Shown here: positions 18,748 through 36,500 of the stretch, piece after piece
How positions within the stretch are numbered: the stretch's first letter is position 1
Layout of the letters: every line of letters starts with the position of its first letter
Source: Candidatus Bathyarchaeota archaeon
GTDB lineage: Archaea > Thermoproteota > Bathyarchaeia > Bathyarchaeales > SOJC01
Direction: 5' to 3'
NCBI GenBank assembly: GCA_020354575.1
Contig: CP070649.1
Location: 1,094,360 to 1,158,359 of the forward strand
DNA: 64,000 nucleotides
Notes under the pieces: model-generated
The model's database searches: none
Told to the model about the DNA's origin: nothing
What the model saw: only the letters and a program-made list of their open reading frames with translations
Program-made: the position numbers and the translations under genes

Positions 18748-18841
18748 GGGCCCGTTGCGCAGTCTGGATACACTTCATACCAGAAAACGCGTCGGCCCTC
18801 TAAGCCGAAGAGCCTGGGTTCAAATCCCAGCGGGCCCGCCA
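18748..18841 (+). tRNA. tRNA-Arg(UCU) with 16-nt D-loop intron and encoded CCA
   Basis: Acceptor arms GGGCCCG (18748-18754) and CGGGCCC (18831-18837) pair fully. Discriminator G 18838 is followed by an encoded CCA. The anticodon arm is TCGGC/GCCGA with anticodon TCT at 18799-18801, and the T-arm is CTGGG/CCCAG with TTCAAAT loop. The D region is 16 nt too long: removing about 18771-18786 restores a normal 10-nt D-loop and the D-stem GCGC/ACGC. Exon CTGG (18764-18767) pairs with intron CCAG (18780-18783), flanked by the 3-nt bulges ATA and AAA, giving a bulge-helix-bulge-like splice motif. Position 33 is C instead of the near-universal U. Confidence 0.9.
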
Positions 18842-28514: not shown

Positions 28515-28849
28515 TGGGTGGCGGGCCTTAGGCGGGGGGCTAGGGGTCCTCTGAAAGGCTTTGCCTGACCATAAATCCTCTATACGATGGGCTAACAGCT
28601 GAGGCTGAGGTGTCAAAGAGCGTGAGGCTCTGCCTATCCTTGCAATGAATATCCGTCCCTTGGGGCTGGCGGTCACGCGGCTGTCTCTGTAGGGAGGCTG
28701 TTTCCGTGTTTGTTAGGCGAACCTGGCCAGGACCGGGAGGGAGCAACCTAAGTCTAAACGTTTGGCGCTCAAGGGGGTGCGGATACGAGACAAGAGTAGG
28801 TGTGAGCCTGGCGAAAACTGGGCATCGAATCTCAGTGACCCGTCACCTA
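28515..28849 (+). ncRNA. ffs: Signal recognition particle RNA (7S RNA)
   Basis: The ends pair over 10 bp: GGGTGGCGGG (28516-28525) with CCCGTCACCT (28839-28848). The helix 8 core is seen in GGCGAACCTGGCCAGGACCG followed by GGAGGGAGCAACC, the SRP54-binding loop of archaeal SRP RNA. Total length of about 333 nt fits archaeal SRP RNAs. The RNA scaffolds SRP19 and SRP54 for co-translational targeting. The exact ends are set by the terminal helix and the TATA position and may be off by a few bases. The apical tetraloop region reads GGGAGG where many archaea have GGAAGG. Confidence 0.9.
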
Positions 28850-30611: not shown

Positions 30612-31691
30612 TTAGCTAATGGAAAATCGCAGAAGTGCTGCAATTCCTCCTAGACTTTGCAGTTTCTGACCCGCTTCATGTTCAATGCTGATGACAATAA
30701 CCGATCCACCCCTCTCTTCAACTTCTCGCATCAGTCTTTCTAGAGCCAGTCGTTTCTCGTCTGAAGCGTCTCTTATTGTGAAGTCAGCTACAAGAAGTTT
30801 CTCTACTGCTCCAAATGATTTCGCCTTCTCTACTTGTTCCACACCATAGGTTGCGGTGCCTTTTTCCTTACCAAGTCTTTCCAGCAGATCCTCAATAATT
30901 CGAGATTCTTCCGCAATACGCATACGCCCTAATGCTTTGTTCAACACACCAGAACGCAAAGCCTCTTGAATTCCTGCGATTCCGCTGTTATTCACACTTT
31001 TTACATCAATAATTGCTTTGGCGATTTCGGGAGTTTCGCTTTCAACATATTTAAGAAATTGTTTTTTGGTGAAACCTACACCAATTATGGCAATTGGGTA
31101 ATCATTCTTTCCCACAAGCTCCCTCAAGGCCTTTGCTGCATTTCCTAAATATTTCTGGAGCGCGGTATCTCTCTTCTGAGCCTCAAGCTTGCCTGGAAGT
31201 CTCGCTTTGTTTTGAACATGAACATTCACACCAAATTCCCTTATCATTCCAATGCAATATTCTTCGGTATCAATAGAAACAACAACGAGAGGTGGACCTT
31301 CAGAATGCTTAGCTCTTTCCAGCCGATCCATTTGATGTTTTGACCATTTGTTTTTTACGATGGTTATCGGCGTGTTAACAGCAATGTTTAATGTGTGGTG
31401 CGTTCCTCTTCCAGCAATTTTCTCAGGAGCCTCGTCTATGGTACCGTGAACCCGAAGTCTGTTTAGACTCCGATCCCAAATAACATCTTCCACTAACACG
31501 CTGAGAAAAACTGATATACGTTTGCCCTTTTGGGGTCTTGAATACTCTACATCAATTTTCACTTCTCTCGTGGTTCGGGAATAAACCAAATCGCCCTTGT
31601 ATATGACATTATACAAATGCCACAAATCATCTAGCGTCTTTGGGATTACTTTGACGAAGCCTTTCTTGAAATTCTTCTTCAGAATCCTCAA
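30612..31691 (-). CDS. pelA: Pelota homologue (mRNA surveillance/ribosome rescue)
   Basis: 359 residues from TTG 31691 (GGTGAG upstream). The N-terminal Sm-like domain starts MRILKKNFKKGFVKVIP, the central domain has VVVSIDTEEYCIGMI, and the C-terminal domain ends GGIAALLRFSIS as in the aRF1/pelota family. GGQ and NIKS are absent, separating it from aRF1. Pelota binds stalled ribosomes with ABCE1 or aEF1A for rescue. With aRF1, RqcH and TtuA in the same window it forms a translation and quality-control neighbourhood. Confidence 0.95.
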   Translation of the reverse strand: MRILKKNFKKGFVKVIPKTLDDLWHLYNVIYKGDLVYSRTTREVKIDVEYSRPQKGKRISVFLSVLVEDVIWDRSLNRLRVHGTIDEAPEKIAGRGTHHTLNIAVNTPITIVKNKWSKHQMDRLERAKHSEGPPLVVVSIDTEEYCIGMIREFGVNVHVQNKARLPGKLEAQKRDTALQKYLGNAAKALRELVGKNDYPIAIIGVGFTKKQFLKYVESETPEIAKAIIDVKSVNNSGIAGIQEALRSGVLNKALGRMRIAEESRIIEDLLERLGKEKGTATYGVEQVEKAKSFGAVEKLLVADFTIRDASDEKRLALERLMREVEERGGSVIVISIEHEAGQKLQSLGGIAALLRFSIS

Positions 31692-31787
31692 AACTCACCG
31701 CACCTCGTGTTTTATCTAGTAAGTTTCTTCGGCTCCTAGCGTATGATCGTGAACTGCTTATTTCTGTTGCGCTAAGCTCGAGTTTCA

Positions 31788-32924
31788 TTAGCCTTGGATG
31801 TCAGCAAAAGTAATTAGATGAATGTTCAAGGGCTGTTTAACCACATCTGATACTCGTGCAGCCACCAAGTATTTGATCTTCTTCTGATTAGCTACATCCA
31901 CTAAACGTTGCGTTATGACTCCATCGAAAACTACTGTATCCACCTCTTCAGTCTGTTGAAGTTTTTCTGCAAGCTCACTTACAGGCAAACGATCAACATC
32001 CTCCATTTTCTTATTAAGCAATACAGCTTCGAGAGTGCCCTCCAACTCTTTAGCTACTCCAACGATTTGCTTTGGAACCAGCAATCTTCGCTTCTCCTTC
32101 TTCTTGGGTATCTTGGTAATAGGTGCCTTTTGGTCAAGGGCTTTCATGATTTCTTTGCAGTTTAATTCCTCAACTTCCACTCCATTGGGAGCTCGTGCAA
32201 TGTACTTTGCACTGGTTACCTGCATTAATTCTTTGAGTATCAAGTCGCCTCCACGATCCCCATCCAGAAAAGCAGTTGCTTCCTTTTCTTTGCAGAGCTT
32301 GATTATTGTTTCAGGTATCTTTGCACCTTCAAGAGCAATAACATTGAGAATGCCACATCGCAGAAGGTTAAGAACATCAGCTCGACCCTCCACTATGGTT
32401 ATTTCTTTGACACTATCGATTTCTGGACCTGCGGTGAGCTTTTCCTTGCCATATTTAACTACCTTGGCAGTTCGCAGTGTTCCTGAAACTTCACGATAGA
32501 TCTCATCTGTACTTGGCATAGATTCGATGTTCCATTGATGAAGAATCTCTTTTGCACGATTGATTATGAGCTTCCTTCTTGCATCTCGTATGTCTTCAAC
32601 TTTTTCTAGTATGACATTAGAGTTACATGGTCCTACACGATTTATGCTTTCCAAACTTGCAGCTAGTATAGCCGTAGAAACCCTGTCTAGACTAGTTGGA
32701 ATGATTATTGTTCCGGTTGTTTTATCCTGTTTTGATTGCAGGTTAATTTCGATTCTACCAATTCGACCAGATTTCTGCAACTCACGCAAATCTAACTCAG
32801 GACCAAACAAACCTTCTGTTTGACCAAAAACTGCGCCAATAACATCTGGCTTCTCTACAACACCATCGATTTCAAATTTCGCTCGAACTACATACTTTAC
32901 TGTAACAGTTTGTGATGAACCCAT
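31788..32924 (-). CDS. dnaG: Archaeal DnaG-type primase-like protein
   Basis: About 378 residues from ATG 32924, which has GGAGGTGA five bases upstream; GTG at 32933 is the longer alternative and would place the start inside the SD motif. The N-terminus carries the archaeal-specific VIGAVFGQTEGLFGPELDLR. A central Toprim domain has ITIVEGRADVLNLL (Glu) and ATAFLDGDRGGDLI (DxD) at about 165-250. Archaeal DnaG is associated with the exosome and its replication role is debated. The downstream end of a Toprim mini-protein gene lies 94 bp upstream on the same strand. Confidence 0.93.
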   Translation of the reverse strand: MGSSQTVTVKYVVRAKFEIDGVVEKPDVIGAVFGQTEGLFGPELDLRELQKSGRIGRIEINLQSKQDKTTGTIIIPTSLDRVSTAILAASLESINRVGPCNSNVILEKVEDIRDARRKLIINRAKEILHQWNIESMPSTDEIYREVSGTLRTAKVVKYGKEKLTAGPEIDSVKEITIVEGRADVLNLLRCGILNVIALEGAKIPETIIKLCKEKEATAFLDGDRGGDLILKELMQVTSAKYIARAPNGVEVEELNCKEIMKALDQKAPITKIPKKKEKRRLLVPKQIVGVAKELEGTLEAVLLNKKMEDVDRLPVSELAEKLQQTEEVDTVVFDGVITQRLVDVANQKKIKYLVAARVSDVVKQPLNIHLITFADIQG

Positions 32925-33017
32925 TAACGTCACCTCCGAATGATATTAGTGAGGATTAGCATCACTAAATGTGAAACGTAAACTGACTATCCGCTACTAT
33001 CTTCTCTCTATTATAGT

Positions 33018-33431
33018 TTACGAATTCCCAATCTTCTTCTTCAGAGTGAGAAGGTAAGGCAAGATGCTTTCGATGTCTTTTACGTTACGACCAATCATTT
33101 TGTGAAGTTCTTGCCAGAAGTATGTGTTGGGCTTAATATTGGTTTGTTCAAGATATTGGACTAATCGTTTAGTCCATTCCTTGCCACGTCTATCAAAATC
33201 CATTAACAATATCACCTCTTCTAAGTCTAATCTCTCAATCTCCGTCACTAGAGCAAGGAAAGACTTTCTCGTTTTCGCAGCAATAATAACCCCAGATAAT
33301 GCAAGTTTACGAAGAGTATCTATGTCGTTTGGACCTTCGACAATAATAGGTATGCCTTTAGTTGAATGAAATGCTAAGCGTTCGAAGAGCTCTTCAATTC
33401 TCTCAATTTTTTCCTTTAAGCGAGTTGACAA
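33018..33431 (-). CDS. Small stand-alone Toprim protein
   Basis: 137 residues made almost entirely of a Toprim fold: IPIIVEGPNDIDTLRKLAL (metal-binding Glu) near residue 28 and VILLMDFDRRGKEWTKRL (DxD) near 75. Small archaeal Toprim proteins of this sort resemble RNase M5 or OLD-type domains and are probably nucleases or nucleic-acid processing factors. It starts six bases after tyrS on the same strand from a TTG and precedes dnaG, also a Toprim protein. Function unproven. Confidence 0.8.
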   Translation of the reverse strand: MSTRLKEKIERIEELFERLAFHSTKGIPIIVEGPNDIDTLRKLALSGVIIAAKTRKSFLALVTEIERLDLEEVILLMDFDRRGKEWTKRLVQYLEQTNIKPNTYFWQELHKMIGRNVKDIESILPYLLTLKKKIGNS

Positions 33432-33436
33432 GAACC

Positions 33437-34516
33437 TTACCTTGTTATTTCGATTTTTTTCATCTCTTCTACTTTCTCAGGATGCTTTTGGAAGTGGGTT
33501 CGAACAGGTTCTAATATTTGTATTAGAGCTTCTGCAACTGCATTTTTCAAGTCTAATGGATGGATTTTTTCTTCTCTGTATGCTTTCTCTAGCTCATTGT
33601 AGTTCGTGTAGGTTTCGATCCCTCCATATTTAGGCGGTCTTGTGATAGTAATTTCGTTAGTGTTGGTAAACACAGCAAGACGTGCGACTTCTAACACGGG
33701 ATTGTTGATTACCTCTTTGGGCGGACAATATGCCTCCTTTAACTTGATTTTGATGCTCTCTATGGAGTCATGCACAAAGATGCATGTGCTGGGAACGCTC
33801 TTTGCCATCTTTGAGACAATTTGGAGGTTTAGTTTCGAATTTTCATCGAGTTGTTTGTCGCCCTTTTTGGGTCCCCGCAACCCCATTAGGAGCGGCGTGT
33901 GAATGCTTATTGGCTTTTGCCAGTCAAGCTTTTCAGCCGCATCACGAGCAAGCATGTGAGCTTTACGCTGGTCCATTCCCGCACAAGCTACATCGAGTTG
34001 CATTTGAAATATATCTGCAGCTTGCATCAACGGATATAGTAACCATGCAGTTTCAACGTCAGAAAGCGTCGTGTCTCTTCCCATTATAGGCAGGGCTCTC
34101 CAAACGCGTTGTACAGAGGCGCTTTTCCCTATTTTGACAATTTTCTCCCAGTAATCAATATCTCTAGCGAGCTCTGCTGCCCATCGATATTCAACATTCC
34201 TTATTCCAAGTGCGGTGAAGCATTCCCTGAAATATTCCCCACATAAACGTATGTTCTCGATTTTTCCTCCAAGCTTGTTGTTTATCCAACTATGCCAATC
34301 AGCAAGAAAAATGATGAAATGAAAACCTACTTGCGTCATTTCTCTAATTTTAGAACCGCAGACCAAGCCCAGACCGAGGTGCATAAGGCCACTTGATTCA
34401 AATCCCCAGTATGCGCGTGGTTTTGTTTTTGTCTCAAGCAATGAACGTAACTCATCTCGGGTTACGATTTCTTCGGTGTTGTGGGCAATAAGCTTCATTT
34501 TTCCTTCTATGTCCAA
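33437..34516 (-). CDS. tyrS: Tyrosyl-tRNA synthetase
   Basis: 359 residues from TTG 34516 (GGAGA eight bases upstream). It is class I: the HIGH-like motif is GLMHLGLG near residue 44, with AYWGFESSG before it. MDQRKAHMLARDAAEKL and PLLMGLRGP are tyrosyl-family signatures, and the KMSKS-like loop is SKMAKSVPS near 240. It charges tRNA-Tyr. The gene lies downstream of pheS and pheT but is separated from them by a 331-bp spacer containing a large predicted RNA structure (34578-34784), unlike the tight spacing elsewhere. Confidence 0.93.
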   Translation of the reverse strand: MDIEGKMKLIAHNTEEIVTRDELRSLLETKTKPRAYWGFESSGLMHLGLGLVCGSKIREMTQVGFHFIIFLADWHSWINNKLGGKIENIRLCGEYFRECFTALGIRNVEYRWAAELARDIDYWEKIVKIGKSASVQRVWRALPIMGRDTTLSDVETAWLLYPLMQAADIFQMQLDVACAGMDQRKAHMLARDAAEKLDWQKPISIHTPLLMGLRGPKKGDKQLDENSKLNLQIVSKMAKSVPSTCIFVHDSIESIKIKLKEAYCPPKEVINNPVLEVARLAVFTNTNEITITRPPKYGGIETYTNYNELEKAYREEKIHPLDLKNAVAEALIQILEPVRTHFQKHPEKVEEMKKIEITR

Positions 34517-34577
34517 AGCAGTGTTCTCCTGATTGCTTGTATAATTCGATAATTAAGGATTTTAGGATTCTCTTTAT

Positions 34578-34784
34578 CGCGGGTGGTATATGTGTCCCAC
34601 GGTACCTAACTCTCAACTTCATTGATGGAGTCTACGCTCTTCTCGGTTAAGCTCTCTCTAGCGTGGGAATTTTCACCCGCGCCCACCATGTCTCGTGCTT
34701 GGGTAAGCTGTCCATCATTGACCAACGGATTAGGCAGGCCTTTGTCAAGTCCGTCATCACGAGCTCAAGGAGAGTTTTGGTGGG
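34578..34784. ncRNA. Structured element between pheT and tyrS (two long-range helices plus pseudoknot), unassigned
   Basis: Domain A: CGCGGGTG (34578-34585) pairs with CACCCGCG (34674-34681), and inside it CCCACG (34596-34601) pairs with CGTGGG (34662-34667). Domain B begins at the next base: CCCACC (34682-34687) with GGTGGG (34779-34784), and inside it CTCGTG (34692-34697) with CACGAG (34758-34763). Within B, TTGAC (34718-34722)/GTCAA (34744-34748) and ACGGA (34725-34729)/TCCGT (34750-34754) interlock as an H-type pseudoknot. All stems are perfect. No frame here looks coding. It could be a tyrS leader on the minus strand or a separate RNA on either strand. It matches no RNA family I recognise. 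Confidence 0.6.
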
Positions 34785-34847
34785 ATTTCAATCGCTCGTA
34801 TCATCGCTAATTAAATCTAGATGAGAACAAAGAAAAAGGTTTCTTAT

Positions 34848-36500
34848 CTACAAAATCTCCAAGTTTACTTCAAAGGCTGCTGTAGGGTTTTCTAACTCAA
34901 AATTATTCAGGACCTCTGGATGAACCTCGCCTACGATTCCTATCTGCTTCTTCTTGACATTGAGTGCTGCAATTCTTCCTTCTGTGAAACTTGGATGCTT
35001 TACAGCTCTTACGTCCCAATGTCTTACCCCCATGTTTGACAATAAAGCTTCCACCGCGGACCTTATCTCAGTGAAATTTGCAGAAGAATGGGATGATACT
35101 GCCGCTAAATGCATTAGTCTTTCACATCTCGACTCCATTTTAGAATTTTGGTTAACCACATCTGAAACTTCAAAGAGTTTCTGTGGAAAGCTCTCGTGTT
35201 TATTCTCCGCAAGATTTTTCATCAGATAGGGGAGCAGATCTTCCCGCATTATGGTGTATTCGCTGGAAACTGGATTGGCAAGCTTTACAGGCTTTTGAGC
35301 CTTTCTCCGCATCTTTTTGTAATGTAAGTGTTCATTTGTGAGAGTGAAGTTTAAGACCTCGACGAAGCCCAACCCTATCATGATTTGTCTTGCCCTATTT
35401 GCCATTATATATGCGGGATGCTGCTTGCCAATTGTAACGGACGATGGGAGCGTTGGTTTAAGCTTGTAATAGCCATGACCAATCGCTACTTCCTCTACTA
35501 AATCAACTTCGTGGAAAATATCGATGCGATATACTGGAATCGCTACTTCAATGGCTTCTTTTCCATTTTTTTTAGCGCCAAGCCTACACTTCTTCAAGGA
35601 TTCAATAATATTTGCCTGAGATAGTTTGAGACCAAGCAAATCGTTGACAAACCTCGTCTGCAAATTCATTTTTTGTGGTGTAAAATTTGGCGAATGCACT
35701 GTACGGTTGGGGTATTCTACCTTGACAGTCTCAACTCGGCCGCCCATATCAGCGAGAGCAGTTGAAAGGACATTTAGGCTCTTATTCACAGCTTCATAGT
35801 CCGTACCTGTGACATCAAGGAACAAGTTCTCAGTGTTTTCATCTACTCTGGTCAACTCACCATTTATTATCGGAGGCATGGACAATACTTTGCCATCTCT
35901 GTCGACAAGCAGGGGATATTCTGACGCCCAATCAATCAAATGTTTGTATTGCACTCCCTTTTCATGGTTTTTTAGAATCTCCCACAGGCTCATTTCCTTG
36001 GTCGTTCCCAAAGGTGCAAATTTCATAGCATTGGGCTTAATTGCAGTAAATGTGAAAGGTGGATTAATTCCATCCAAATTATGCACACCAATAGATGCTT
36101 TTACACGGTCTCTTCCAATCCCCCAATGCAGGTCCTCTTGTATTTCCATCAATTCAGCGACTTCTTCTTCATTAAGCTTAAGATTGCGTACAATAGCACC
36201 AAGCATGAAAGGCCTGACTGCAGAAACTGCGCTGTCAACTTTCAGTACGGTTTTACCCTTCTGCAAATCATATTTTTGCAACCCAAGCTCCCACCCCCTC
36301 AATCCCTTAAGAGCCCGTGCAACTCCCATGTAACTGGAAAAGTCGATGCGATTCGGATTAAACTCTACTTTAACCTCATCTTCTCCAACTTCTTCGATGT
36401 CAAAGCCTAGCCAAGGTAACCACTTGACAATTTCTGCCAGAGACAGCGGCTTTCCTACATACTTGGAGAGTCTTTCTCTGGTTAGGATAATTACCGGCGT
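34848..36500 (-). CDS. pheT: Phenylalanyl-tRNA synthetase beta subunit, probable ACG start
   Basis: About 550 residues when started at ACG 36500, the normal archaeal PheT length. From the first ATG (36329) it would lose 57 residues that are clearly homologous (PVIILTRERLSKYVG, KVEFNPNRIDFSSYMGVARA). The codon at the expected Met position is ACG, with GGGGGGT six bases upstream and an in-frame stop just before it; no ATG, GTG or TTG is available. The protein has the B3/B4 editing and B5 domains and the LFLDVTGTDYEAVNKSLN segment, and ends with the class II-like core (EVSDVV, GEVHPEVL). The start overlaps the pheS end by 10 bp. Confidence 0.92.
   Translation of the reverse strand, partial: TPVIILTRERLSKYVGKPLSLAEIVKWLPWLGFDIEEVGEDEVKVEFNPNRIDFSSYMGVARALKGLRGWELGLQKYDLQKGKTVLKVDSAVSAVRPFMLGAIVRNLKLNEEEVAELMEIQEDLHWGIGRDRVKASIGVHNLDGINPPFTFTAIKPNAMKFAPLGTTKEMSLWEILKNHEKGVQYKHLIDWASEYPLLVDRDGKVLSMPPIINGELTRVDENTENLFLDVTGTDYEAVNKSLNVLSTALADMGGRVETVKVEYPNRTVHSPNFTPQKMNLQTRFVNDLLGLKLSQANIIESLKKCRLGAKKNGKEAIEVAIPVYRIDIFHEVDLVEEVAIGHGYYKLKPTLPSSVTIGKQHPAYIMANRARQIMIGLGFVEVLNFTLTNEHLHYKKMRRKAQKPVKLANPVSSEYTIMREDLLPYLMKNLAENKHESFPQKLFEVSDVVNQNSKMESRCERLMHLAAVSSHSSANFTEIRSAVEALLSNMGVRHWDVRAVKHPSFTEGRIAALNVKKKQIGIVGEVHPEVLNNFELENPTAAFEVNLEIL

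Follow-up and report, generated by a model that had tools for sequence, protein, structure and literature searches.

The window analysed here is a stretch of 64,000 nucleotides from a Candidatus Bathyarchaeota archaeon (GenBank assembly GCA_020354575.1, contig CP070649.1, positions 1,094,360 to 1,158,359 of the forward strand), and all positions below count from its first letter. The spacer between pheT and tyrS contains a conserved RNA gene of approximately 240 nt, running from ~34812 to ~34570 on the minus strand, which is also the strand of both neighbouring genes (Table 1). Past tyrS, the same strand carries two genes for Toprim-domain proteins (33018-33431 and 31788-32933) and an eRF1 gene (30612-31691), which together make positions 30612-33431 part of a translation-related cluster. 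An archaeal SRP RNA (RF01857, 136 bits) lies on the plus strand at 28519-28845. At 18748-18841 on the plus strand, ARAGORN additionally called a 94-nt ‘tRNA-???’ whose anticodon it left undetermined; the tRNA covariance model listed no match at this place, and the call is probably spurious or marks a degenerate gene. A tRNA was also considered as an identity for the spacer itself and was rejected.

Table 1. Features of the pheT–tyrS spacer and its flanking genes, in window coordinates
Feature	Position	Strand	Basis
pheT, gene upstream of the RNA	34848..36329	-	Pfam tRNA_synthFbeta, B5, B3_4
Predicted BRE/TATA promoter (ATAAGAAACCTTTTTC), directly past the pheT stop	34832..34847	-	AGAAANCTTTWTT-like element at fixed spacing
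Whole RNA gene, two-hairpin H/ACA RNA (putative guide)	34570..34812, both ends approximate	-	Limits of conservation in the alignment; match to covariance model R1 at G000:C1:1128930-1129172
GCGATGA, conserved 5′ terminus	34801..34807	-	Near-invariant in the alignment
Hairpin B (5′ domain), H/ACA hairpin inside outer helix P1 (34779-34784 with 34682-34687)	34682..34784	-	Covariation, helices 1-4
Hairpin B lower stem P2, 5′ strand (partner 34692-34697)	34758..34763	-	3 pairs changed on both sides
Hairpin B 5′ guide ATGACGG (GACGG conserved)	34751..34757	-	Sequence
Hairpin B 3′ guide UUACCCAA	34699..34706	-	Closing pair to ACA 15 nt
Hairpin B ACA box, flanked by P2 and P1	34689..34691	-	15-nt spacing
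Hairpin A (3′ domain), H/ACA hairpin inside outer helix P7 (34674-34681 with 34578-34585)	34578..34681	-	Covariation, helices 5-8; HgcG stem III matches the homologous hairpin at related loci
Hairpin A lower stem P8, 5′ strand (partner 34596-34601)	34662..34667	-	Covariation
Hairpin A 5′ guide CUAGAGAGA	34653..34661	-	Complementary to LSU UCUU, on the 3′ side of the target U
Hairpin A upper stem P9, 5′ strand (partner 34612-34617)	34646..34651	-	Covariation
Hairpin A apical part, K-turn-like internal loop (CGAGAA facing AAUGAA)	34618..34645	-	Layers 9-10 carry tandem G-A/A-G in 17/24 sequences
Hairpin A 3′ guide GUUAGGUAC	34602..34610	-	Complementary to LSU CUGAC, on the 5′ side of the target U
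Hairpin A ACA box, flanked by P8 and P7	34593..34595	-	15 nt from pocket
tyrS, gene downstream of the RNA	33437..34516	-	Pfam tRNA-synt_1b

An earlier note, made from the letters of the window alone, had described two domains meeting at 34681/34682, each with an outer and an inner helix, and all of these helices (P1 and P2 in hairpin B, P7 and P8 in hairpin A) were found in the sequence, were conserved, and covaried among homologous spacers. In an alignment of 24 sequences, 89% of the cells of the helices were paired and 17 pairs had changed on both sides, with 71 both-side-changed cells compared to 28±6 in shuffles and 0-14 in controls in which the helices were slid. The note had named homologous spacers without compensatory changes as a refutation, and this check went in its favour. 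The outer helices P1 and P7 are among those that covary, and each ACA box sits between a lower stem and an outer helix, an arrangement that constitutes an unusual feature of this RNA; in one related family (f28), inspection by eye likewise shows outer pairing around hairpin B. Other parts of the note fared differently. Its span, 34578-34784, is real structure but falls short of the full RNA. The H-type pseudoknot that it placed in the 5′ domain (TTGAC/GTCAA with ACGGA/TCCGT) proved to be a coincidence of one sequence, as the paired fraction of its two helices, 51% of cells, equals that of the shuffles, half of the cells being unpaired, and covariation is absent. Chance pairing is indeed improbable, as it had argued, but on the grounds of conservation and not from the single sequence, for which the minimum free energy is marginal on either strand (z −1.65 on the plus and −1.48 on the minus strand); the element was thus judged to be real because it is conserved and covarying, not because of its folding energy.

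The consensus pairs contain 99 G-U wobbles when read on the minus strand versus 59 when read on the plus strand, and the RNA was assigned to the minus strand because of this count and the presence of a conserved BRE/TATA element; a plus-strand RNA was ruled out on the same two grounds. The element resembles AGAAANCTTTWTT, and in most loci its position on the minus strand relative to the 5′ GCGATGA is constant (~−38 to −28), from which the RNA is predicted to have its own archaeal promoter and to be transcribed independently. The GCGATGA motif itself resembles box C, with no box D partner seen, and is found in family f28 at a similar distance from the TATA element.

Of 61 genomes searched by blastn, 39 contained the spacer, counting that of the window, and the covariance model R1 found the RNA in 193 of 232 Bathyarchaeia genomes, including 109 of the 120 high-quality ones. 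In a phylum-wide sample of 397 genomes, 126 matched at an E value of 0.01, and 44 of these belong to other classes of Thermoproteota; in a pattern search, every named match was to Bathyarchaeota, Bathyarchaeia, or Bathyarchaeum. Copy number is mostly single across the phylum. Second, partial matches occur in G042, G044, G047, and G112, and one second match (L150, G042:C1:1414500-1417000) is located before tyrS beside a run of Ns and could represent either an assembly artefact or a real copy. The gene neighbourhood recurs as well: of 53 distant loci, 25 have pheT as the immediate upstream neighbour and 26 have a co-oriented tyrS next to the RNA downstream. One or both genes adjoin the RNA in 38, and neither does in the other 15, some of which are cut by contig ends. 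A gene that we read as EVE-domain-like takes the place of tyrS in family f27, which is probably composed of ammonia-oxidising Nitrososphaeria; that family f26 is Desulfurococcales-like is our guess.

Archaeal H/ACA RNAs are characterized by a distance of 14-16 nt between the closing pair of the pocket and the ACA box, and by a GA stem of 10 layers that ends in the sheared G-A pairs of a K-turn (PMC4652768, PMC7991803). In the 24-sequence alignment, the pocket-to-box spacing was 14-16 nt in 47 of 48 hairpins. For hairpin B, the distance from closing pair to ACA was 15 nt in all 24 sequences and in 72 of 82 loci across the phylum; for hairpin A, it was 14-16 nt in 23 of 24 when ANA was accepted, the box being ACA itself in 15. 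A sequence pattern of tandem G·A at layers 9-10 (5′-GA facing 3′-AG) was observed in 36 of 48 hairpins (17/24 for A, 19/24 for B), and the window's own hairpin B deviates locally, with an A replacing the first G of the K-turn. The lower stems amount by pair counts to 7 bp (P2) and 6 bp (P8), with weak extensions possible, where the criterion for guides is 7-9 bp.

Targets were sought with a canonical scan in which a pocket defined by the structure was combined with a 2-nt UN spacer and a required U; the criterion for guides is bipartite complementarity of at least ~8 bp. Six genomes had complete LSU and SSU rRNAs, and in each of them the top site for hairpin A was CUGAC[UC]UCUU, which belongs to the 3′ strand of helix 69; in G024 an SSU site scored equally. 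The helix-69 site ranked first or second in most other genomes. Pairing there amounted to 5-6 + 4 bp in 23 of the 24 sequences, the 3′ duplex of Bathyarchaeia having only 4 bp, and none of 300 joint shuffles reached the score of hairpin A. The site was picked both by the guides of Bathyarchaeia (GAGAGA / GUUAG) and by the different guides of the probable ammonia oxidisers (UUUAGA / GUCAG). Homologues linked to tyrS in family f26 pair more extensively around the target U, with 5-7 + 6-8 bp when computed against the helix-69 sequence of the other genomes; the f26 5′ guide UUUAAGA yields 7 + 8 bp, and one member has GUCAG in place of GUUAG, by which a G-U pair becomes G-C. Family f43 (G285, G341; L132, L135, L159) possesses the RNA with a hairpin A 3′ guide (GAUCG) that misfits helix 69, and the site is absent in G258, in which the LSU is interrupted. 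The LSU genes of G239, G260, and G258 (L241, L242, L245) appear to have an intron-like insertion right in the helix-69 target region.

When aligned via the equivalence of E. coli 1915/1917 to yeast 2258/2260, the target U corresponds to E. coli U1921, and the equivalent yeast nucleotide is Ψ2264 of the 25S rRNA, a helix-69 pseudouridine made by snR3 (PMC8307265). Position U1915 was tried as a target of hairpin A and rejected, the bathyarchaeal guides forming 4 + 1 bp there versus 5 + 4 bp at U1921.

Hairpin B yielded no convincing canonical target in LSU, SSU, tRNA, SRP, or RNase P RNA, and a genome pattern search did not rise above its control. Bathyarchaeia and several further lineages conserve its guide segments GACGG and ACCCA, which complement both sides of CUGGGU[UUAGA]CCGUC (E. 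coli 2579-2594) in the peptidyl-transferase loop; this was the best site common to two distant genomes. This match entails a 5-nt spacer, which is non-canonical, and was equalled by 12 of 100 shuffles. We tentatively suggest that hairpin B may act on the peptidyl-transferase loop around U2585/U2586.

No catalogued RNA family was found at the locus: an Rfam scan of the window returned only chance-level matches there, even at an E value of 10, and no family reached its cut-off for the RNA at related loci. At a permissive threshold, HgcG (RF00064) hit one related RNA in its hairpin A (E 1.7e-4 on 351 bases) and weakly matched the whole RNA of one bathyarchaeon (E 0.015 on 361 bases), with E values as low as 1e-12 elsewhere in the phylum. 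HgcG and R1 identified the same coordinates in G272, G236, G265, G376, G346, G306, G351, G356, G251, G286, G188, and G030, and HgcG also found single hairpins in family f26 that R1 missed, three of four being directly before tyrS. The window's own genome (G000) had no HgcG match, and none of the 397 genomes reached the gathering cut-off of 77 bits, the best scoring 49 bits; because its scores fall below this cut-off, the RNA was not filed as HgcG and is probably a distant relative of that family rather than a member. An HgcG-like single hairpin of family f49 (L248, G344:C1:1066757-1066826) bears guides GGGUCA / GUUAC that fit helix-69 U1915 and not U1921 (by our reading, leaving out one guide base per side gives 5 + 6 bp), and G344 seems to have kept the HgcG-like U1915 type.

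We consider it very probable that the spacer encodes an independently transcribed double-hairpin H/ACA sRNA guide of ~240 nt whose hairpin A is directed to helix 69 U1921. Counting against this reading are the HgcG scores below cut-off, the neighbouring U1915 as the known target of HgcG stem III, the misfit in family f43, the 4-bp bathyarchaeal 3′ duplex, the want of a convincing canonical target for hairpin B, the altered K-turn base in the window's hairpin B, and the placing of the ACA boxes within closed helices. Each hairpin would comprise a lower stem, a pseudouridylation pocket, and an upper stem ending in an L7Ae-type K-turn, on which L7Ae, Cbf5, Nop10, and Gar1 would assemble, with the ACA box 14-16 nt below the pocket clamped by the extra outer helix. 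Hairpin A would pair with LSU helix 69 and offer the U of CUGAC[UC]UCUU to Cbf5, and hairpin B would act, less certainly, in the peptidyl-transferase loop. A bolder extension, which we regard as doubtful, is a Thermoproteota-wide RNP in which the two clamp-locked H/ACA units cooperate on helix 69 and the peptidyl-transferase loop, thereby coupling modification and folding of both halves of the LSU active region within one particle.

The earlier note had proposed either a cis-regulatory leader or a new noncoding RNA for the element between pheT and tyrS, and it was the latter that held, in the form of a minus-strand H/ACA class that the note had missed in what it correctly took for structured RNA. 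A cis-acting tyrS leader, sensing for instance tRNA-Tyr, tyrosine, or L7Ae, would accord with the fact that the RNA precedes a co-oriented tyrS both in the window and at roughly half of the distant loci (26/53), and K-turns in mRNAs can bind L7Ae. The RNA is, however, also kept where pheT alone or neither gene adjoins it, is preceded by its own BRE/TATA element at a constant distance, and has guide-type pocket and ACA geometry, all of which make a leader very unlikely; a riboswitch or T-box-like leader was rejected since linkage to tyrS is not constant.

That the RNA has an H/ACA fold yet serves mainly as a chaperone of rRNA folding or assembly, bridging helix 69 and the peptidyl-transferase loop instead of guiding modification, has an in-principle parallel in snR30/U17. 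Such a role would suit the strongest conservation of both guides being against the functional core of the LSU, the non-canonical spacing of the hairpin B pairing, and the covariation of the otherwise unexplained outer clamp helices, but the geometry of hairpin A obeys the rules for productive guides and yeast carries a pseudouridine at the target nucleotide, and we deem a predominantly chaperone function distinctly unlikely. Coincidental H/ACA resemblance in some other structured RNA, such as a second RNase P-like or SRP-like RNA, would agree with the lack of an Rfam family at cut-off; it is rendered extremely improbable by the near-universal spacing of pocket and box, by the finding of the same loci with HgcG, and by the separate existence of RNase P RNA (elsewhere in the genome) and of SRP RNA in the window, identities that were each rejected for the locus.

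As an H/ACA guide, the RNA would represent a mostly single-copy, phylum-wide gene in a recurrent neighbourhood, where descriptions of H/ACA guides have so far come mainly from euryarchaea and a few hyperthermophiles. Searchable papers contained no named bathyarchaeal or thaumarchaeal RNA of such a kind, and a guide spanning Bathyarchaeia and their relatives is covered neither by those papers nor by Rfam families at cut-off. A pseudouridine at helix 69 U1921 is predicted in archaeal ribosomes, a modification that to our knowledge has so far been known only from eukaryotes, and the structure and covariance model will allow others to annotate the RNA.

Several known systems invite comparison. The H/ACA guides described from the same phylum are single hairpins, several of them without a full lower stem or ACA (PMC4652768; likened by description), and yeast snR3, which has the same predicted helix-69 target nucleotide, is a eukaryotic snoRNA without a K-turn. 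HgcG (also Pab40 or Pf7) of Thermococcales is likewise a multi-hairpin H/ACA guide active at or close to helix 69. The hairpin A homologue aligns to its third hairpin, with a common K-turn (CGAUGA), 3′ guide GUGUUA, and ACA. HgcG differs in being composed of three hairpins instead of two, the outer helices around each ACA are a trait of the present RNA, and the known target of HgcG stem III is the neighbouring U1915 (guide GUUAC) instead of U1921 (GUUAG), the HgcG 3′ guide fitting U1915 better. The two hairpins HP1 and HP2 of Haloferax volcanii (Hvo1/Hvo2) have helix 69 (E. coli 1915/1917) and the peptidyl-transferase loop as their assigned targets, that of HP1 being Ψ2621 of H. marismortui, which is E. 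coli 2586 (PMC2584109); as described, they differ in their exact helix-69 target and in the long spacer between hairpins that are here tightly joined. The helix-69 strand holds the near-repeat GUAACUC / CUGACUC, by virtue of which, we infer, retargeting by a slide of six bases would be easy. That the two hairpins described here point to the same two regions as HP1/HP2 suggests, by analogy, an ancient paired guide whose helix-69 target may have slid by six nucleotides.
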